Assembly (NCBI GenBank): GCA_003142475.1
Contig: PLMK01000023.1
Coordinates: 1 to 54,106, forward strand
DNA: 54,106 nt
Source of the DNA: Ignavibacteriota bacterium
GTDB taxonomy: Bacteria > Bacteroidota > Ignavibacteria > UBA10030
Direction of reading: 5' to 3'
Shown here piece after piece: positions 33,716-53,458 of this stretch. The translations under genes and the position numbers were made by a program. Each line of letters starts with the position of its first letter. The first letter of the stretch is position 1. The notes below the pieces were generated by a model, which searched no databases, was not told the origin of the DNA, and saw nothing but the letters and a program-made list of their open reading frames with translations.

Positions 33716-33943
33716 TTCGTTTGACCATTTATTTGTTGCCATTTCTAAATACTATGAGGTGTTTGCTAAACATAATCAGACATGAAGCCAATACATCGAC
33801 GAAACCCTGGGCCGTGACAACCCAGGCTGAAAATCTCTCCTGTCCGTTGCGGTCGTTATCGATGAACTCGCACATGGCCAATGATGTCGCGCTCCCTAAC
33901 AATCCATGAATTATAATGATCGTCCATATTGTGCATCGTTCCA

Positions 33944-35299
33944 ATGATGAACCTCCTGCGAAAGAAAATACTCTACTACGCTAAACGGCCTATGCTGAAA
34001 GAAATGGCGGCCAGTGCGGTAGGGGCGGGCATAGCAAGAAGTTTTGGATCGCTCATCCCAATCGTTATCGCATGGTTTTTCGGCATCGGAGGCGATACGG
34101 ATCTCTTCTTTTTCGCATTTGCGATTATTATGTTTATGACTTCTGTTCTCTCGATTACCATGGAAACCGTTTCGATCCCGTTCTTTGCGAGTATCAAAAG
34201 CGATGGAGACGATATAGGAGCATTTGTCGGAGTACTCTTTTTCATTATTCTTCTTGCAACATCTCTCTTGGCTGTTTTCTTATATTTTGCTATTCAACCA
34301 GTTTTATTCTGGTTGACTCATTTTTCCCTTCAACAAATTGAAGAAATTCGAACGTTGATTTTCTTCATTCTTCCCGTGTTTACGTTTGTCGTGTGCTCAT
34401 CGATTTTTGTCGGTTCACTCAATGCCCAATCTTTTTATTTTGTCCCGTCATTATCAACCGCCCTTCGCTCTGCTGTGGTCGTCATTGCTATTTATTTTGG
34501 CTCAAAACGCTATGGTATCATTGCGTTGTCAGCAGCGTATGTCATCGGGGAAGGATTTCGGTTCCTGTTACTCTATTGGTACATTGTTATTAAAAGACTG
34601 TATGTCATTAAAATGACAAAAAACATTTTACCTCAGGTAAAGCATTTTTTTAATAAAGGATCATATCATATTGCTTCAGCACTCTTAGGGGGTATAAATC
34701 CACTCATCGATAAATCAGTTGCTCTTTGGGTCGGATTGGGGAGCATATCCGTCATAGAATATGCAGATCGACTCAACGGTCTTCCTATGATGTTTTTTAG
34801 CAGTCTTCTGCCGGTCCTCTTATCCCGGTGGTCAAAAGCATATTATTCTGATTCAATTATCGATCTAAGGGAAAAAGTGGCGACGACAATCAAATATATT
34901 ACCATCCCCATCGTGATCATCAATATCATTGTCCTTTGTTTTTCAGAACATATCGTTCGTCTCGTCTATCTCCATGGAGATTTTCCTGCTGATAAAGTGT
35001 CGTTAGTCTCCCAAACATTTTCGGCCTACATGATAGGTTTGTGGCCGTATTTGGTTGCCCAGACTATTATCAGAGGGTATATGGCAATGAAAATCACCAA
35101 GATACTAATGACCTTGGCCGTAGCAAGAGTATTTATGAATATTATTTTCGATATTGTTTTTGCAAAATTATTTGGAGTTTTTGGAATCGCGTTATCAGCT
35201 ACGCTCTGCACAAGTATTCTTACCGCGATTCTCGCGTTTCGCTATTTTAGAAAGGACGAATTCGGAAAGAGTAAGAATGCCATGGTTACGGTCGTTTGA
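33944..35299 (+). CDS. MurJ/Wzx-type lipid-linked oligosaccharide flippase
   Basis: This 451-residue membrane protein has about 12-14 transmembrane segments spread over its whole length, with few charges outside the loops. The N-terminal ASAVGAGIARSFGSLIPIVIAW and the mid-protein LLGGINPLIDKSVALWVG fit the MATE-like MOP superfamily (MurJ, Wzx). MurJ-type proteins flip lipid II; because this one sits among polysaccharide genes, it more likely flips the undecaprenyl-linked repeat unit of this locus. A second flippase-type protein lies at 51953. I chose the ATG at 33944 (second ATG at 33947); a TTG at 33929 is possible. A terminator lies about 76 bases after the stop. Confidence 0.78.
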   Translation: MMNLLRKKILYYAKRPMLKEMAASAVGAGIARSFGSLIPIVIAWFFGIGGDTDLFFFAFAIIMFMTSVLSITMETVSIPFFASIKSDGDDIGAFVGVLFFIILLATSLLAVFLYFAIQPVLFWLTHFSLQQIEEIRTLIFFILPVFTFVVCSSIFVGSLNAQSFYFVPSLSTALRSAVVVIAIYFGSKRYGIIALSAAYVIGEGFRFLLLYWYIVIKRLYVIKMTKNILPQVKHFFNKGSYHIASALLGGINPLIDKSVALWVGLGSISVIEYADRLNGLPMMFFSSLLPVLLSRWSKAYYSDSIIDLREKVATTIKYITIPIVIINIIVLCFSEHIVRLVYLHGDFPADKVSLVSQTFSAYMIGLWPYLVAQTIIRGYMAMKITKILMTLAVARVFMNIIFDIVFAKLFGVFGIALSATLCTSILTAILAFRYFRKDEFGKSKNAMVTVV

Positions 35300-44011: not shown

Positions 44012-45119
44012 TGATATGAAAACTATCCTTCTTGTTGCCGGCACACGTCCGGAAATTATTAAAACTGTACCTGTTGTCATTGAAGCGCAAAAAAGAAATG
44101 ATGTCAAGATAGTCTATTGCCTTACAGGCCAGCATAAAACTATGGCGATGGAAGCATTGTCAATTTTTGGAGTCAAACCGGATGACGATCTTCAAATTAT
44201 GCGTCCGAACCAGACTTTAAACATGATCTGCGAATCAGTCTTTGCAAAATTACCGTCAGTAATTGAACATACAAAACCGGATGTAGTTATGGTGCAGGGG
44301 GACACGACCACTGCAGCAATGACGGCTCTATGCGCATTCAATATGAAAGTTACTGTTGCACACATTGAAGCAGGATTGCGTTCATTCAATATGGAAGCAC
44401 CGTATCCGGAAGAATGCAACCGACGGCTTGTTGGAGTGGTCGCGAAATATAATCTCTGTCCAACAACGATGGCGCGGGAAAATTTGCGCCGCGAAGGAGT
44501 GTCCGAAAATACATTGTATGTTACAGGCAACACAGTTGTAGACGCATTGCGTTTGATTCAAGAAAAGCACAACCTCGATAAACTCGATCGTATCCTGCCG
44601 GATGTAAAAAAACCATTTGTGCTTATTACCGCACATAGACGTGAAAGCTTCGGCGGGGGATTCCAAAATATCTGCACAGCAATCCGTGAATGCGCTTTGC
44701 GATATCCTAGTTTCCAGTATATTTATCCTGTGCACCTAAATCCCAGCGTTAAAGGACCGGTGCATGAAATGTTAGGGAAAATTAGCAATGTGAAGTTGAT
44801 TCCGCCAATTCCGTACCTTGAAATATTAACATTGATAAAACATTGCGAGTTTGTGCTTTCCGATTCTGGAGGCATTCAAGAAGAAGCACCGTCGTTTGGT
44901 AAGCATTGCATAGTGATGCGTGAAGTAACAGAACGGATGGAAAGTGTGAATCTTGGAATGTCAGAGCTTGTCGGTACAAATGTTTCAAAAATCCTCGATG
45001 CAATTCAGCGCACAGTCGAAGGAAATATCAAGCATGATACCGGTCAGAATCCGTATGGCGATGGTCATGCATCGGAAAAGATATTAGACATTTTAACTCA
45101 TCACTCTACGATTCAATGA
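44004..45119 (+). CDS. wecB: UDP-N-acetylglucosamine 2-epimerase (non-hydrolysing), second copy
   Basis: The 371-residue protein is a second member of the family seen at 32615. It has LLVAGTRPEIIKTVPVV (about residues 9-25), VMVQGDTTTAAMTAL (about 95-109) and HIEAGLRSFNMEAPYPEECNR (about 117-137), then TAHRRESFGGG (about 209-219) and DSGGIQEEAPS (about 290-300). The catalytic acidic and histidine residues look intact. It differs widely from the first copy, so the two probably do not come from a recent duplication and may serve different sugars. The ATG at 44004 overlaps the previous gene by eight bases; ATG 44016 is an alternative. It overlaps the following transferase by four bases. Confidence 0.88.
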   Translation: MHNDMKTILLVAGTRPEIIKTVPVVIEAQKRNDVKIVYCLTGQHKTMAMEALSIFGVKPDDDLQIMRPNQTLNMICESVFAKLPSVIEHTKPDVVMVQGDTTTAAMTALCAFNMKVTVAHIEAGLRSFNMEAPYPEECNRRLVGVVAKYNLCPTTMARENLRREGVSENTLYVTGNTVVDALRLIQEKHNLDKLDRILPDVKKPFVLITAHRRESFGGGFQNICTAIRECALRYPSFQYIYPVHLNPSVKGPVHEMLGKISNVKLIPPIPYLEILTLIKHCEFVLSDSGGIQEEAPSFGKHCIVMREVTERMESVNLGMSELVGTNVSKILDAIQRTVEGNIKHDTGQNPYGDGHASEKILDILTHHSTIQ

Positions 45120-46534
45120 ACACCCAGCGTGAACATATCGTTACGCTGCTGATCGATGTTCTCACTATCAATCTTGCCTATTTCGCATATTATTGTTTTC
45201 GTGTACGAAGCGGATGGATTCCATACAGCATTGAACCTGAACTTCTATTGCCTATGGTGTTCGTTTGTGTGTACTGGCTAATCTGGTTTGGTATCTTCGG
45301 TCTTTATCATTCATGGTACGAGCAATCCCGTATCGATGAGATCCTCACGATAGTCAGGGTAACCATTATTGGTGCATTGATTTTATTCTTTTTAATTTTT
45401 CTTGATGATACCTCCAGCGATACAATCGTCCACTCTCGGCTTTTAATTCTTGGATATTGGTTTGTGTTAATGATATTAGTTATCACCGGCAGAATAACGA
45501 GACGATTTGTTCAACGGAGATTACTATTGGCAGGAGTTGGACTGCGCAATACAATTATCGTTGGTTGGTCAGAAAAAGCTTTTGAGTTGTGCGATATGGT
45601 ATTAAAATATCCGGCTTTGGGATATAAGGTAATTGGATTTATAAAGGTAGGCGCGAAGAGTGCAGTTGCTCCTCGAGTGAAAGAGAGCAATTACAAAGGT
45701 ATTCCAATTTTGGGAACGATGAAGGAATTATCTGTGATTATCAAGAAGGATGCAGTTAGCGAAGTGCTGATTGGACTTGACCCCTCTGAACGAAGGCAGC
45801 TTACCGATATCCTGCGTCAATGTGATTCTGTTGATGTGGGCATGAAAATAATGCCAGATTTGTATGATATTGTCAGCGGGCAGGCGCGCATCAGTTCGCT
45901 CTATGGCTTGCCGCTCATGGAAGTACGTCCGCAGTTGATGAAGCCGTGGGAAGAAGTGGCAAAACGTACGCTTGATGTTCTTTTTTCATTATTAGTGCTG
46001 ATTATCGGACTTCCGCTATGGCTTATTGTTGCGTGTTTTATAAAACTTGATTCTCATGGACCTGTACTATATCGCCAAATGCGCGTTGGCAAGAATAGTA
46101 ATCATTTTAGGATATTGAAATTTCGTTCGATGCGTTCGGATGCTGAAAGAAAGTCCGGTCCAATTTGGGCTGGAAAAAACGATCCACGCGTTACGAATGC
46201 CGGACGCATTCTTCGGAAAACGCATTTTGATGAAATCCCACAATTTATCAATGTACTCAAGGGAGATATGAGTTTAGTAGGACCACGACCCGAGCGCCCC
46301 TTTTTCGTGGATAAATTGACGAAAGAAATTCCGCTCTACAATCATCGTCATCGCGTACGTCCTGGAATTACCGGTTGGGCACAAGTAAAACATAAATACG
46401 ACGAGAATATAGAAGATGTGCGCGCAAAGATAAAATATGATTTATTCTATATTGAAAATATTTCATGGCGCTTGGATTTGAAAATTCTTTTTAACACTAT
46501 TTATGTGATGATTACGGGAAAAGGGCATGCCTGA
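45116..46534 (+). CDS. undecaprenyl-phosphate glycosylphosphotransferase (initiating transferase)
   Basis: This 472-residue enzyme moves a sugar phosphate from a UDP-sugar onto undecaprenyl phosphate and so starts glycan assembly. It has about four N-terminal transmembrane segments (about residues 10-28, 42-64, 80-99, 113-128), then a Rossmann-like CoA-binding-type domain (about 140-270). The catalytic bacterial sugar transferase domain follows (about 282-472). That domain has the membrane re-entrant helix, [10 protein letters not shown] (about 339-348), [27 protein letters not shown] (about 375-401) and [13 protein letters not shown]. The KFRSMR Arg and the DE of FDEIPQ are the catalytic sites known from PglC-type folds. 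It is the intact counterpart of the degenerate module fused to GT2 at 48382. Confidence 0.92.
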
Positions 46535-47654: not shown

Positions 47655-48377
47655 ATGAAACGATCTCTTATTATTATCCCAACCTATAATGAAGCGGACA
47701 ATGTGTCCAAGATCATCCCTGAGGTGTTGGCACAGGATGAAGGATTCAATGTGCTGATTGTCGATGACAACTCACCGGATGGAACTGCGAAGTTAGTAAA
47801 AGAAATGCAGAAGACAAATTTGCGTATTCATCTGATCGAGCGCCCCAATAAGTTAGGACTTGGCACAGCGTACGTGGCAGGTTTCAGGTATGCGCTAACA
47901 CATGGATTCGATTTAGTGTTCGAGATGGATGCCGATTTCTCACATGATCCCAAGTCGTTGGTGAAACTTTTAGCAAAAGCAGGAGAATATGATCTGGTTA
48001 TCGGTTCGCGGTACATATCCGGAGTAAATGTTGTGAATTGGCCTATGCGGCGATTGATTCTAAGTTATTCTGCAAATCTTTACACACGGATTATCACTGG
48101 CCTGCCTGTTAAAGATGCAACCGCGGGTTTCAAATGTTACCGTCGCGCTGTGCTGGAGACTTTCGATCTTGACTCGATCAAATCAAACGGATACAGTTTT
48201 CAGATTGAAACAAATTACCTTGCTTGGAAACACGGGTTCCGTATATATGAAGTGCCTATTGTCTTTACCGATAGACGAGAAGGTGTCTCGAAAATGTCGA
48301 AGCATATTGTTTTTGAAGCAGCGTGGATGGTGTGGAAGTTAAAGTTCAGGGGTCTGTTTTCAAAAGAGAACGATTAA
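47655..48377 (+). CDS. polyprenol-phosphate mannosyltransferase-like GT2 (DPM1-like)
   Basis: The 240-residue enzyme is a GT-A family 2 transferase of the dolichyl- or polyprenol-phosphate mannose synthase type. Marks are IIPTYNEADNV (about residues 7-17), VDDNSPDGTA (about 35-44), a DAD motif in EMDADFSHDP (about 90-99), and the DATAGFKCYRR segment near 151-161. It lacks the C-terminal transmembrane helices found in some members, so it is a soluble or peripheral form. It probably supplies a lipid-linked monosaccharide for protein or glycan modification outside the membrane. The gene lies four bases before the GT2 fusion gene. Confidence 0.88.
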   Translation: MKRSLIIIPTYNEADNVSKIIPEVLAQDEGFNVLIVDDNSPDGTAKLVKEMQKTNLRIHLIERPNKLGLGTAYVAGFRYALTHGFDLVFEMDADFSHDPKSLVKLLAKAGEYDLVIGSRYISGVNVVNWPMRRLILSYSANLYTRIITGLPVKDATAGFKCYRRAVLETFDLDSIKSNGYSFQIETNYLAWKHGFRIYEVPIVFTDRREGVSKMSKHIVFEAAWMVWKLKFRGLFSKEND

Positions 48378-48381
48378 GCAT

Positions 48382-50415
48382 ATGGCTGTCGCACATAAAC
48401 AAGCACCGCCTGATGTTTCGGTCATTATCGTCAACTACAATGTCCGCGATTTTCTGCATCAATCGCTCTTATCCATTCAGAAAGCTTTGAAGGGAATCCG
48501 TTCGGAGATTTTTGTTGTCGATAATGCTTCTGATGATGGCAGTGCAGAGATGGTGCGGCGGCGATTTCCTCGCGTCCGACTTATTGCTAATACTACCAAT
48601 CTTGGTTTTGCCAAAGCAAACAATATTGCACTAAAACAAGCGCGTGGTAAATTCCTCCTCCTAATCAATCCTGATACAATTGTGCAGGAAGATACAATCC
48701 GTGTAATGGTAGAGTTTCTCCAAAACCATCCAGAAGCCGGACTTGCGGGATGCAAGATTTTGAATCCTGACGGCAGTTTTCAACTAGCATGCCGCCGCGG
48801 TTTTCCAACACCATGGGTTGCATTCACAAGAATTATCGGACTTAGTAAACTTTTTCCCAAAACAAAGTTATTTGGAAAATATAATCTTACGTATTTAAAT
48901 ACGGACGAAACTTATCCGGTTGATGCTGTGAGCGGTTCGTTTATGATGGTACGAAAAGAAACGTTCGAGCAAATTGGCGGTTTGGATGAAAGTTACTTTA
49001 TGTATGGCGAGGATCTTGATTGGTGCTACCGCATTCGTCAAGCAGGCTGGCGAATATTATATGTACATTCAACACAAATTATTCATTACAAAGGCGAGAG
49101 TACGCGGCGAAGCAGCTTGGATGAGATTCGTACATTCTACGATGCAATGCATCTCTTCGTCGAAAAAAATTTTCAGTCTTCAAGACTTTTCAAGATTGTT
49201 TTACGGTTATCCATTGGCATTGTCTCATTCGCTGCATTCATAACCTCGGTACTACGCCCTTTGAAAATCGCTATTTTCGATTTTATCGCTGTGACGATAA
49301 GTCTTCTTATAGCAGAAGAACTTTGGCGGGGAGCACTTTTCAGATATCCGGCTTACGCATATTCGATTGTTTTCACTATTCCAGCTATCATTGTTATCGG
49401 TAGTTTGTATGTTGCGGGAGTATATACACAACGGCGCATGTCCATCTCTCGATCCATCGGCGCTATTATTCTCGCTTATGTTTTTATTTCTGCACTGACA
49501 GCTTTTTTTAAGAACTATGCCTTCAGCAGAATGATTGTTGCGATTTCCGGAGTTCTATCGATGGTCTTTATCCCCGGATGGCGGTTGGTATTCCGATTGG
49601 TTAGAAAAACGTCGGCATATGGAAGGGGAACATTGTTCGGCAAACGAACGTTAATTGTGGGCACGGATAAAGACGCCATTGGGCTGCAGCAAAAATTGCG
49701 GACAAGGATTGGAGAAGGATACGAGATAGTAGGATTTGTCGGGACTACACACGAGCAGATTGGTGAGATGTTGAATAGTGTCCCAGTGATTGGCAGTATC
49801 GACAACGTTGGAAAAATAGTCAAAGAGCAAAAGATCAGCGATGTTATATTTTCACCGAAAGCACTCAGCTATGCACAAATTCTTTCAGTGATCAGCAAGA
49901 GCCGTGAGCAGATTGTGAATTTTCATCTTGTTCCAACGACGATGGAAGTAATTGTAGGGAAGGCAAGTGTAGATAGTCTTGATGATTTACCATTAGTGCA
50001 AATTGCATACAATATCGACAAGCCGTCCCATTTGTTTACAAAACGGATGTTTGATATCGTTCTTTCTGGATTGCTCTTGATAACGGTTTATCCTATTTTT
50101 AGATTGTCGTCAGCGATGACGAAAAAGAGAAAAAGCGGATTTCTTGCAGGGTTGCCGCGTGTGTTCAAAGGAACCCTGAGTCTTGTTGGTACGCCCGTGA
50201 ATGAATCGCGTGTACCAAAGCAGATTGGAGATATTCTCTTTCTTGGTAAGCCTGGCCTCAGCGGTTTGGTACAACTTCAGCAAGACTGTGCATTGTCGGA
50301 TGAAGAACTTACACAATACGATCTTTATTATGCGCGCAACCAGAGTGTGCTGCTTGATCTTGAAATTCTTATTAAGACGTGGCTGCAATATCGGACGATG
50401 CGAAAGAACGCGTAA
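48382..50415 (+). CDS. GT2 glycosyltransferase fused to a catalytically stripped glycosylphosphotransferase module
   Basis: This 677-residue protein has two parts. The N-terminal ~240 residues are a GT2 (WbbL/rhamnosyl-like) domain: VSVIIVNYNVRDFL (about 12-25), FVVDNASDDGS, NPDT (metal site) and YFMYGEDLDWCYRIRQAGW (about 209-227). Next come about five transmembrane segments (about 270-405) and a Rossmann-like domain (about 420-550) as in polyprenyl-phosphate glycosylphosphotransferases. The C-terminus has the membrane helix MFDIVLSGLLLITV (about 556-569), then GTLSLVGTP, KPGLSGLVQLQ and YDLYYARNQSVLLDLEILIKT. Compared with the intact enzyme at 45116, the catalytic segment with KFRSMR and FDEIPQ is missing. 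It therefore cannot start glycan chains in the usual way and may tether the GT2 domain at the membrane. Confidence 0.85.
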   Translation: MAVAHKQAPPDVSVIIVNYNVRDFLHQSLLSIQKALKGIRSEIFVVDNASDDGSAEMVRRRFPRVRLIANTTNLGFAKANNIALKQARGKFLLLINPDTIVQEDTIRVMVEFLQNHPEAGLAGCKILNPDGSFQLACRRGFPTPWVAFTRIIGLSKLFPKTKLFGKYNLTYLNTDETYPVDAVSGSFMMVRKETFEQIGGLDESYFMYGEDLDWCYRIRQAGWRILYVHSTQIIHYKGESTRRSSLDEIRTFYDAMHLFVEKNFQSSRLFKIVLRLSIGIVSFAAFITSVLRPLKIAIFDFIAVTISLLIAEELWRGALFRYPAYAYSIVFTIPAIIVIGSLYVAGVYTQRRMSISRSIGAIILAYVFISALTAFFKNYAFSRMIVAISGVLSMVFIPGWRLVFRLVRKTSAYGRGTLFGKRTLIVGTDKDAIGLQQKLRTRIGEGYEIVGFVGTTHEQIGEMLNSVPVIGSIDNVGKIVKEQKISDVIFSPKALSYAQILSVISKSREQIVNFHLVPTTMEVIVGKASVDSLDDLPLVQIAYNIDKPSHLFTKRMFDIVLSGLLLITVYPIFRLSSAMTKKRKSGFLAGLPRVFKGTLSLVGTPVNESRVPKQIGDILFLGKPGLSGLVQLQQDCALSDEELTQYDLYYARNQSVLLDLEILIKTWLQYRTMRKNA

Positions 50416-50448: not shown

Positions 50449-51402
50449 ATGGCAAAAGTTATACTGGATTTTGAACGTCCAATTCTTGAGCTTGAACAAA
50501 AAATTTTGGAGATGCGCAATTACGCAGACAATCTCGATATTGCCGACGAGATTGCCACACTCGAACAAAAAGTGGATCAGCTTCGTATGAATGTTTATAC
50601 TAATTTAACGCGATGGCAGAGAGTCCAACTTGCCCGGCATCCAGATCGTCCATACACATTGGATTACATTCAACTGATGACAGAAGATTTTATTGAATTG
50701 CATGGCGATCGTCGATTCGGCGATGATAAAGCAATTGTCGCTGGTTTTTGCAGAATTGATAAAGAAACAGTGCTTATCGTTGGACATCAAAAAGGAAGAG
50801 ACACACGCTCCAACATCTATAGAAATTTTGGCATGCCTAATCCAGAAGGATACCGTAAAGCACTTCGTCTGATGCAACTTGCGGCTAAGTTTGGAAGGCC
50901 TATTATAACTCTGCTTGATACACCAGGAGCATATCCAGGAATTGGCGCAGAAGAACGCGGTCAGGGTGAAGCGATTGCACGCAATATGTTCGAGATGTCG
51001 CATCTTCCCGTACCAATTATCATCGTTATTATCGGAGAAGGAGCTTCAGGCGGAGCGCTGGGCATTGGCGTAGGTGATCGTGTGCTGATGTTTGAAAACG
51101 CATGGTACTCTGTCATTTCTCCAGAGTCTTGTTCAAGCATTCTTTGGCGGAGTTGGGAATATAAAGAACAAGCAGCTGAAGCGCTGAAGTTGACTGCGCC
51201 TGATTTATTGGAACAAGGGATCATTGATCGGATTATTCCAGAACCGAAAGGCGGTGCACATCGCAATCCAAAGCTCATGGCGCAAACCCTTAAAAGTACA
51301 CTGTTGGAAGAACTGAAAACGCTGCAAAAGATAAAACCAGATCGGCTCGTTCATCTTCGAGTCGAAAAGTTTTCGAAGATGGGTGCATGGAAAGAACGAT
51401 GA
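50449..51402 (+). CDS. accA: acetyl-CoA carboxylase carboxyltransferase subunit alpha
   Basis: AccA, with AccD, moves the carboxyl group from biotin to acetyl-CoA to form malonyl-CoA, the first step of fatty acid synthesis. The 317-residue protein shows [15 protein letters not shown] at the start, [18 protein letters not shown] (about residues 83-100), [14 protein letters not shown] (about 116-129), [20 protein letters not shown] (about 151-170), and [15 protein letters not shown] (about 199-213). An AAGGAG ribosome site lies ten bases before the ATG. It sits at the end of the polysaccharide locus with no terminator in the 33 bases before it. accD is not in the window. Confidence 0.96.
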
Positions 51403-51448: not shown

Positions 51449-51886
51449 ATGATAAAACACACCGCGCAAATCCGTGTTCGATATGCAGATACGGATCAAA
51501 TGAAAGTTGTCTATCATGGAAAGTATCTCGAATATTTTGAAGTAGGGCGCGCTGCATTGATCCGTTCGCTTGGATTACCTTATTCGGAACTTGAAACTCG
51601 CGGTATTCTTCTACCGGTTATTGAAGCATTTGCGAGATATCGAAAACCTGCCCGTTACGACGATCTGCTTTCTATTGAAGCACTTGTTTCAGAATTACCC
51701 AAAGCGACACTCAAAATTCAATATCAAGTATTCCGAAGTCACGAGGAAGAACCGCTTGCGGAAGGGTATACTATTCATAGTTTTTTAAATGTCATCACAG
51801 GGAAGCCAACACGACCACCGTTATATTTCATGCAAATTATGGAGAAGGCGTTCACTGTACCTGTAGATTCCGTAGGACAAGATTGA
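51449..51886 (+). CDS. YbgC/FadM-type acyl-CoA thioesterase
   Basis: The 145-residue protein is a single hotdog domain. Its N-terminus, IRVRYADTDQMKVVYHGKYLEYFEVGRAALIRSLG (about residues 7-41), is the 4HBT signature, with Asp in TDQM as the expected catalytic residue. The usual TDxxGxVY glycine is lysine here. Members hydrolyse acyl-CoA thioesters, and YbgC is tied to the Tol-Pal envelope system in some bacteria, but tol genes are not here. It follows accA after 46 bases, so a link to acyl supply is plausible. Confidence 0.85.
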   Translation: MIKHTAQIRVRYADTDQMKVVYHGKYLEYFEVGRAALIRSLGLPYSELETRGILLPVIEAFARYRKPARYDDLLSIEALVSELPKATLKIQYQVFRSHEEEPLAEGYTIHSFLNVITGKPTRPPLYFMQIMEKAFTVPVDSVGQD

Positions 51887-51952: not shown

Positions 51953-53458
51953 ATGCTCAATAAAATTATCCGCCTCGGAAAAGAGACAGCTATATACGGC
52001 TTGAGTACAGTTGTTGGGCGATTGTTAAACTTTCTCATTGTTCCATTCTACGCTAACGTTCTCTTGCCGGCTGAAAATGGCGTCATCTCTAACATCTATG
52101 CTTACATTGCTTTCGCATATGTCATTTTTTGCTATGGAATGGAACCGGCATATATGCGCTTTGTATCATCCCTGGAACTTGGCGATAAGAAACAAAACTT
52201 CAGTGTTCCGTTTCTTTCATTGTTTACGACATCAGTTATGTTTGCGCTGGCGATCCATTTTAATTCCATTGCACTAGCATCACTCTTAGGCATCGATCCT
52301 GTACAGCATTATTTCATTCAATATGCGGGATGGATTCTTTGCTTAGATGCGTTGACAGTGATTCCGTTCGCATCTTTGAGAATGGAACAGAAGGCGAAGC
52401 GATTTGCGGCATTAAAAATTTTCAACATCACTGCGAATCTTCTTCTCAATCTCGGATTGATACTTGGCCTCGGTATGCATGCCGAAGGAGTATTTCTGGC
52501 AAATCTCATAGCATCCGGTCTCACCCTCCTTGCGATGATTGGCATGGTGCTTCGACGGTTGACTCTCAAACTTCCGGCCGGATTATATAAAGAGATTCTG
52601 AAGTTTGGTCTTCCATATATTCCTGCCGGACTTGCAGGTATTGCGATGCAGGTGATCGATCGTCCAATCGTTAAAGCATTAACAAACGATGCGACGCTTG
52701 GAATCTATCAACTCAATTACCGGCTTGGAATTTTTATGATGCTCATTGTTGGGATGTTTGATTATGCATGGCGGCCTTTTTTCCTCAATCATGCCAAAGA
52801 TACTGATGCAAAGCAGCTCTTCTCGAAGGTATTCACATATTTTATACTTGGCGCAATGTTTATTTTTCTTACCATATCGTTATTTATTGAAGACATCGTT
52901 CGGATGAAATTCTTTGGGAAACAATTTTTTCCGCCGATCTACTGGCAGGGCACTGAAATAGTTCCGTGGGTGTTGCTGGCTTATGTCTTCACAGGAGTGT
53001 ACGTTGTATTTGTAGTTGGTGTGTATCTTGATAAGAAGACAAAATATCTTCCATTCATTACTGGCGCTGGGGCATTACTAAATGTCGGTGCAAACTTATT
53101 TCTAATTCCGAAAATAGGAATTCTTGGCGCAGCTCTTTCAACATTACTTAGTTATATCGTAATGGCGGTGGGTATGTATTATGCTTCTCAGCGATTCTAT
53201 AAGGTGGATTACGAATGGAATAAAGTTTTAAAGATTGCCGGATCAGCAGCATTCATATTTATATTATTCCGTTTCCTGCATTTGCACCCGCTTGATTATG
53301 CCGGCATCTTAGTGAAGTTTATACTAGTGATTGCATTTGGAGCCGCATTAGTATTCCTGAAAGTGATCGATTCAAGAGAGATGACTGAGATGAAGTCGAT
53401 TGTTCAGAGGATATTTACACGATCCTCCAATTCGAAGTCCACAGAAGAACTTCCTTAA
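51953..53458 (+). CDS. polysaccharide biosynthesis flippase (Wzx/RfbX-like)
   Basis: This 501-residue protein has about 12-14 transmembrane segments from residue 12 to 475. The N-terminal TAIYGLSTVVGRLLNFLIVPFYANVL and the later LKFGLPYIPAGLAGIAMQVIDRPIV (about 211-235) are typical of the polysaccharide_synt (Wzx) family of MOP flippases. The C-terminal ~25 residues are charged (RIFTRSSNSKSTEELP). It is the second flippase-type gene in the window and differs from the MurJ-like one at 33944. It starts 66 bases after the thioesterase, with no obvious ribosome site. It ends ten bases before the minus-strand Mut7-C gene. Confidence 0.83.
   Translation: MLNKIIRLGKETAIYGLSTVVGRLLNFLIVPFYANVLLPAENGVISNIYAYIAFAYVIFCYGMEPAYMRFVSSLELGDKKQNFSVPFLSLFTTSVMFALAIHFNSIALASLLGIDPVQHYFIQYAGWILCLDALTVIPFASLRMEQKAKRFAALKIFNITANLLLNLGLILGLGMHAEGVFLANLIASGLTLLAMIGMVLRRLTLKLPAGLYKEILKFGLPYIPAGLAGIAMQVIDRPIVKALTNDATLGIYQLNYRLGIFMMLIVGMFDYAWRPFFLNHAKDTDAKQLFSKVFTYFILGAMFIFLTISLFIEDIVRMKFFGKQFFPPIYWQGTEIVPWVLLAYVFTGVYVVFVVGVYLDKKTKYLPFITGAGALLNVGANLFLIPKIGILGAALSTLLSYIVMAVGMYYASQRFYKVDYEWNKVLKIAGSAAFIFILFRFLHLHPLDYAGILVKFILVIAFGAALVFLKVIDSREMTEMKSIVQRIFTRSSNSKSTEELP

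Follow-up and report, generated by a model that had tools for sequence, protein, structure and literature searches.

A GT2 glycosyltransferase family fused to a large phosphoglycosyltransferase that has lost its catalytic core

The window, a 54,106-nucleotide stretch of DNA from an Ignavibacteriota bacterium, encodes a GT2 glycosyltransferase fused to a large phosphoglycosyltransferase (Lg-PGT) without a catalytic core, and this loss is a property of the whole protein family, not of a single gene. Fusions of a glycosyltransferase to a phosphoglycosyltransferase (PGT) are known as bifunctional enzymes; here, an entire family keeps the fusion and drops the PGT chemistry. Selection has kept the dead PGT half, whose most persistent piece is the dimerization domain. 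The family isolates the noncatalytic parts of an Lg-PGT as something that selection keeps by itself.

RESULTS

A GT2 domain joined to a pseudo-Lg-PGT

The reading frame of the fusion begins with ATG and is open and intact. From the N to the C terminus, it encodes a GT2 domain, a four-helix bundle, a PF13727 domain, a domain-swap hairpin, a re-entrant helix, and a WbaP-type Lg-PGT C-terminal tail, as follows (all on the forward strand).

48382..50415, +: GT2-pseudo-Lg-PGT fusion protein, 677 amino acids (Pfam; full-length homologues)
48409..49101, +: GT2 (GT-A) catalytic domain, residues 10-240 (PF13641, E = 4.8e-24; PF00535, E = 6.4e-24; motifs; Foldseek)
48667..48675, +: N96-P97-D98, GT2 metal/nucleotide-site motif (invariant, 65 members)
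49006..49020, +: G209-E-D-L-D213, GT2 catalytic-base-type motif (invariant, 65 members)
49183..49602, +: four-helix membrane bundle, residues 268-407 (AlphaFold2 model m220001fc744e; WbaP bundle alignment)
49612..49938, +: PF13727 "CoA-binding_3" domain (Lg-PGT DUF), residues 411-519 (Pfam, model, WbaP alignment)
49957..50010, +: GKASVDSLDDLPLVQIAY, residues 526-543, aligned to the WbaP domain-swap beta-hairpin (8t53 alignment)
50023..50121, +: re-entrant-membrane-helix segment of the PGT domain (KRMFD...P571), residues 548-580 (alignment, model)
50122..50151, +: short linker replacing the missing catalytic core (profile and WbaP alignments, spacing)
50152..50385, +: C-terminal PF02397 remnant (SLVG, PGLSG, closing helices), residues 591-668 (PF02397 match)

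An earlier note on this DNA had called the N-terminal GT2 domain intact, and its invariant motifs and the Pfam GT2 match over residues 10 to 240 bear this out. The GT-A fold and the D-N, N-P-D, and E-D-x-D motifs are all present, and D47-N48, like the two motifs listed above, does not vary among 65 members. On the strength of these motifs, the GT2 domain is probably catalytically active.

The AlphaFold2 model (pLDDT 79) contains a GT-A fold, four membrane-type helices (residues 268-316, 324-344, 355-375, and 383-407), a Rossmann domain, and the re-entrant and terminal helices. A Foldseek search with this model returned WbaP (8t53) as the top PDB match (E = 1.8e-14), followed by GT-A enzymes that include WrtF and GalNAc-T2. 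Pfam places PF13727 at residues 343 to 518 (E = 7e-17), and the PF02397 match covers only profile positions 94 to 175 of 179 (52 bits). G526 and K527 of the hairpin segment are invariant. The re-entrant helix still has its K-R-x-x-D start, with K554 and D558 invariant, and its proline break, with P571 nearly invariant; S600, G603, and D659 of the dead half are invariant as well (65 members).

The missing segment carries the catalytic residues

We compared the fusion with an intact Lg-PGT encoded upstream in the window.

45116..46534, +: intact Lg-PGT (WcaJ/EPS_sugtrans type), candidate partner (PF02397 1-178; TIGR03025 above cutoff; model m7bd3619015d5)
46052..46240, +: approximate segment of the intact Lg-PGT that is absent from the fusion, with KFRSM (335-339) and D372-E373 inside (profile-profile, BLASTP)

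In BLASTP, residues 359 to 666 of the fusion align with this protein (23% identity, E = 2e-18), with an internal gap over KFRSM...FDEIPQ, and a profile-profile comparison of the fusion family with the intact family (probability 100%, E = 8e-39) places the gap over the same residues. The two proteins are thus homologous from the bundle through to the C terminus, and the fusion is without about 55 to 65 residues bearing KFRSM and the catalytic Asp-Glu. The PRPE/R motif that follows SLVG (G389-R394, invariant in the intact family) is likewise gone. Against solved WbaP chains, the fusion-family profile aligns over chain positions 6-310 and again over 382-466, and skips the catalytic part. The likeness to the 45116 enzyme described in the earlier note was confirmed for the membrane helices, Rossmann domain, SLVG strand, PGLSG/PGITG turn, and closing helix, and the reported absence of the KFRSMR/FDEIPQ segment is borne out by the truncated Pfam match and by the gap in the BLASTP and profile-profile alignments.

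Among the features of an Lg-PGT, the fusion has the four-helix bundle before PF13727, PF13727 followed by the hairpin segment, and the re-entrant helix; the Asp-Glu dyad and a complete PF02397 domain are absent by Pfam, alignments, and spacing. Among those of a bifunctional PGT (Bi-PGT), a second enzyme domain on the chain (GT2) is present, whereas a functional PGT domain is not.

The core is missing throughout the family

The earlier note had proposed a search for this architecture across genomes, and the fusion recurs in close relatives, in named contigs, and across the phylum. Strong matches were found in 59 of 60 relatives searched, several of them ending at contig ends; the remaining genome (G020) has only a weak GT2 match (E = 6e-36) that lies outside the fusion family. 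The fusion is also present in 80 named contigs of Ignavibacteria and KSB1, and 211 of 296 genomes in a phylum sample match it at E <= 1e-60. We rejected a local deletion or an assembly error because other genomes carry this architecture too.

None of approximately 145 fusion homologues, drawn from Ignavibacteria, other sampled members of the phylum, and KSB1, has an intact core. The core is missing in all 89 of the 92 aligned sequences that reach this region (two stop before it, and the sequence of L100 is scrambled at this point, probably owing to a frameshift), as well as in 40 phylum representatives and 15 further reduced forms. The deletion is therefore common to all members, in that no homologue keeps KFRSM and the Asp-Glu dyad, and the possibility raised earlier that homologues retain the catalytic segment falls away.

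The extent of the deletion is graded. The KRxxD-to-SLVG spacing is 97 to 98 residues in most intact enzymes, 33 to 47 in most fusions, and 58 to 71 in L151, L152, L167, L169, and L185; because a simple regular expression misses or mis-anchors some sequences, aligned tails were used for those. KSB1 forms, represented by three contigs only, are about 25 residues longer than Ignavibacteria forms at the core site and keep a longer stump, as do a few other lineages; in KSB1, the catalytic DE position reads RK, RR, or DK. In L185 (4956-9431), the fusion makes up the last ~640 residues of a 1,492-codon open frame and the GT2 start is missing, which may reflect a gene fusion, a deletion, or a frame problem.

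The fusion lies in a conserved gene neighborhood with an intact Lg-PGT

The locus order in Ignavibacteria is Lg-PGT, often DegT, DPM1-like GT2, fusion, accA, thioesterase, and Wzx, and parts of this order persist in other classes. The immediate neighbors in the window are as follows.

47655..48377, +: GT2 of the DPM1-like, polyprenyl-phosphate hexose synthase type, immediately upstream of the fusion (Pfam)
50449..51402, +: accA, conserved downstream neighbor (PF03255; synteny)
51449..51886, +: 4HBT thioesterase, conserved downstream neighbor (PF13279; synteny)

The intact Lg-PGT lies upstream in most Ignavibacteria loci, usually by 2 to 5 kb, and at least one complete PF02397 PGT was found in 41 of 41 genomes tested, although a complete PF02397 alone need not mean an Lg-PGT with the hairpin. 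These data agree with the earlier view of the fusion as a GT2 on a membrane scaffold beside an intact enzyme. In several lineages outside Ignavibacteria, the fusion does not adjoin an Lg-PGT. Each of 30 genomes searched from across the phylum has a single match to the DPM1-like protein, whose gene adjoins a complete PGT in several genomes in which the fusion lies elsewhere.

Several other features of these loci were recorded. In most Ignavibacteria loci, the two fatty-acid genes, accA and the 4HBT thioesterase, lie directly 3' of the fusion within a glycan operon. A MurJ-type (PF03023) protein is encoded within the polysaccharide cluster of the window (33929-35299), besides the Wzx-type protein at 51953. 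The same genome contains a broken PF02397 gene (G000:C49:39451-40017), seen as two partial hits, of which one carries an in-frame stop. A different GT2 is fused to an Lg-PGT with a complete PF02397 at L203:1072-3438 (reverse strand), where it adjoins a DPM1-like gene; this genome (G081) also has the pseudo-PGT fusion.

Independent reductions stop at PF13727 and the hairpin

Some members have lost more than the core. L148 and L149 keep PF13727 with only a stub of the PGT tail, and L171-L173, L187, and L188-L202 (about 390 to 430 amino acids) have neither bundle nor tail. In these reduced forms, the GT2 domain is followed by one hydrophobic stretch and then by a PF13727 remnant, which in most cases ends in an IIGSxS-like motif that corresponds to the hairpin start. 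The pooled remnant profile matches the family DUF in hhalign with a probability of 91% (E = 1e-6; column-shuffled controls, 0.2 to 0.75), and subgroups alone give weaker matches (62% for the L173/L188-type group, under 5% for the others). The reduced state needs four changes on the GT2 tree, at least three of them forced by well-supported branches; this tree omits fifteen sequences dropped by motif and is midpoint-rooted only, because the motif filter removed all four outgroups. At least three lineages thus lost bundle and tail, each retaining a PF13727 remnant that ends at the hairpin.

The fusion is under purifying selection. In L009, the one close pair with all four regions computable (dS is mostly saturated in distant pairs), dN/dS is 0.077 for GT2, 0.104 for the bundle, 0.051 for the DUF, and 0.195 for the PGT remnant, so that the DUF has the lowest value of the four.

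These results bear on two alternatives. The dead half could be a fossil left by an ancestral bifunctional GT2-Lg-PGT whose PGT step was lost, with the remaining sequence now functionless and decaying. The graded shortening of the KRxxD-SLVG interval (97-98 to 58-71 to 33-47), the longer KSB1 stump with its DE replaced, the further loss of parts in several lineages, and the existence of an independent GT2-Lg-PGT fusion with an intact core (L203) are all consistent with such a history, which probably does describe how the family arose. It explains the present function poorly, and in that role we regard it as very improbable, given that a full-length remnant is kept over much of the phylum, dN/dS in the close pair is 0.05 to 0.20, and K554, D558, S600, G603, and D659 do not vary.

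Alternatively, the dead half may be a membrane anchor and homodimerization module that serves only the GT2 domain and makes no contact with an Lg-PGT. WbaP is itself a homodimer (PMC10942596) and the fusion has the same elements; the fusion is also sometimes far from an Lg-PGT in the genome. However, if anchoring were the purpose, the bundle would be expected to go last, and the opposite is seen in at least three lineages, which lost the bundle yet kept the PF13727/hairpin remnant. Co-variation of the DUF with the PGT, described below, likewise argues against this explanation, and we consider it unlikely, though a serious contender.

Co-variation is strongest between the two PF13727 domains of fusion and intact Lg-PGT

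The WbaP dimer depends mainly on hairpins exchanged between its PF13727 domains (swap hairpin N251-Q268), and AlphaFold misplaces this hairpin in the WbaP monomer model (PMC10942596). In our single-chain models, pLDDT falls below 50 at the hairpin of both the fusion (520-541) and the intact Lg-PGT (249-267), much like the poor placement of the hairpin described for monomeric WbaP.

Across 44 paired loci, the fusion DUF and the PGT DUF show a residual r of 0.53 once the distances of accA, DPM, and thioesterase have been regressed out, compared with 0.04 to 0.29 for the other eleven cross-domain pairs; distances between loci are nonindependent. The residual r is 0.48 when FUS_GT2 and PGT_cat are also removed and 0.50 in 25 nonredundant loci, and DUF-DUF is the top pair in 295 of 300 subsamples. 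Finer splits, which are exploratory because they were examined after the first result was seen, place the signal between the fusion DUF_C/hairpin and the PGT DUF (0.41 to 0.45), with the PGT re-entrant helix also at 0.33 to 0.40; taken alone, the two hairpins correlate weakly (residual 0.20).

Gene conversion can also produce a DUF-DUF signal. Similarity within the same locus shows a slight excess for the hairpin (z = 3.0) and the TM bundle (z = 2.8), but not for the C-tail. The signal can also arise from shared compositional drift or from a shared ligand, since the PF13727 domain of WbaP senses uridine nucleotides (PMC10942596).

A shared ligand leads to a further explanation, by analogy with WbaP, in which the PF13727 half acts as a nucleotide sensor and UMP or a UDP-sugar would tune the GT2 domain to the flux through step one. 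In WbaP, PF13727 is stabilized by UMP, UDP, and UTP, and the enzyme is inhibited by UMP (PMC10942596). This nucleotide response, the low dN/dS of the DUF in the one close pair (0.051), and a ligand-based account of the DUF-DUF co-variation would all fit a sensor; the much shortened PF13727 remnant in reduced forms does not, and we judge sensing as the main role to be quite improbable. It could nevertheless coexist with docking on a partner and is not exclusive of it.

DISCUSSION

Docking, whether on a live Lg-PGT or on a second copy of the fusion, is in our view the most economical mechanism, and the DUF signal favors a live Lg-PGT. The dead half keeps the parts that would seat it in the membrane and allow it to dimerize (bundle, PF13727, hairpin, re-entrant helix, and C-terminal interfacial helices) and lacks those that would serve catalysis (sugar-nucleotide loops, Asp-Glu dyad, and PRP motif). 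Through PF13727 and the hairpin, the fusion would dock on the Lg-PGT encoded a few kilobases upstream, placing the GT2 active site beside the Und-PP-sugar freshly made by its partner, so that the lipid intermediate would receive its second sugar from GT2 before it diffuses off. We give an even chance to this model of a working GT2 carried on a dead Lg-PGT. The GT2 subfamily and the genomic context point to a second step on Und-PP-sugar; hetero-pairing, acceptor, and order of steps are what we infer from these patterns. The scaffold pairing with the intact enzyme suggested in the earlier note thus stands in part, as a candidate: the retained hairpin and the DUF-DUF signal speak for it indirectly, and a homodimer may form instead.

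In at least three lineages, reduction stops at PF13727 and the hairpin, and what was seen in the WbaP structure thereby becomes a claim on the role of this domain that can be tested. A complete PGT and the DPM1-like enzyme occur with the fusion family across a phylum for which the machinery behind conserved glycans is only partly known, and the enzymes of its shared O-glycan core have been called unidentified (PMC12871550). It is a long shot, but by pairing with a live Lg-PGT, the pseudo-PGT may link steps one and two in the synthesis of a lipid-linked glycan conserved across Bacteroidota/Ignavibacteriota, making this set, with the DPM1-like GT2, candidate phylum-wide glycan machinery, for example for the O-glycan core.

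We found no published description of the fusion family and no PGT pseudoenzyme in the open-access literature searched; FpgA of Flavobacterium psychrophilum (PMC4293000) was considered as a possible characterized relative. Among known systems, the GT2 domain shares its GT-A fold and motifs with rhamnosyl/fucosyltransferase-like enzymes (TIGR01556 below cutoff; WrtF, 9omm), which, unlike the fusion, stand alone. With the Lg-PGTs WbaP and WcaJ (PF13727 plus PF02397), the fusion shares the bundle, PF13727, hairpin position, re-entrant helix, and SLVG/PGxxG tail; it differs from them in lacking KFRSM, the Asp-Glu dyad, and the PRP motif and in carrying an N-terminal GT2 domain. In Bi-PGTs, functional domains are fused to a PGT core (PMC10942596), and like the fusion, they can join a glycosyltransferase to a PGT-type polypeptide, the GT2-Lg-PGT of L203 being one such protein; in contrast, the PGT core is absent from every member of the fusion family, which can therefore perform only one of the two reactions. 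In Myxococcus, the response regulator EpsW activates the Lg-PGT EpsZ, a precedent for a partner that contacts the DUF of an Lg-PGT (PMC12802240); there the partner is a response regulator, whereas here it would be a glycosyltransferase that is itself derived from a PGT.
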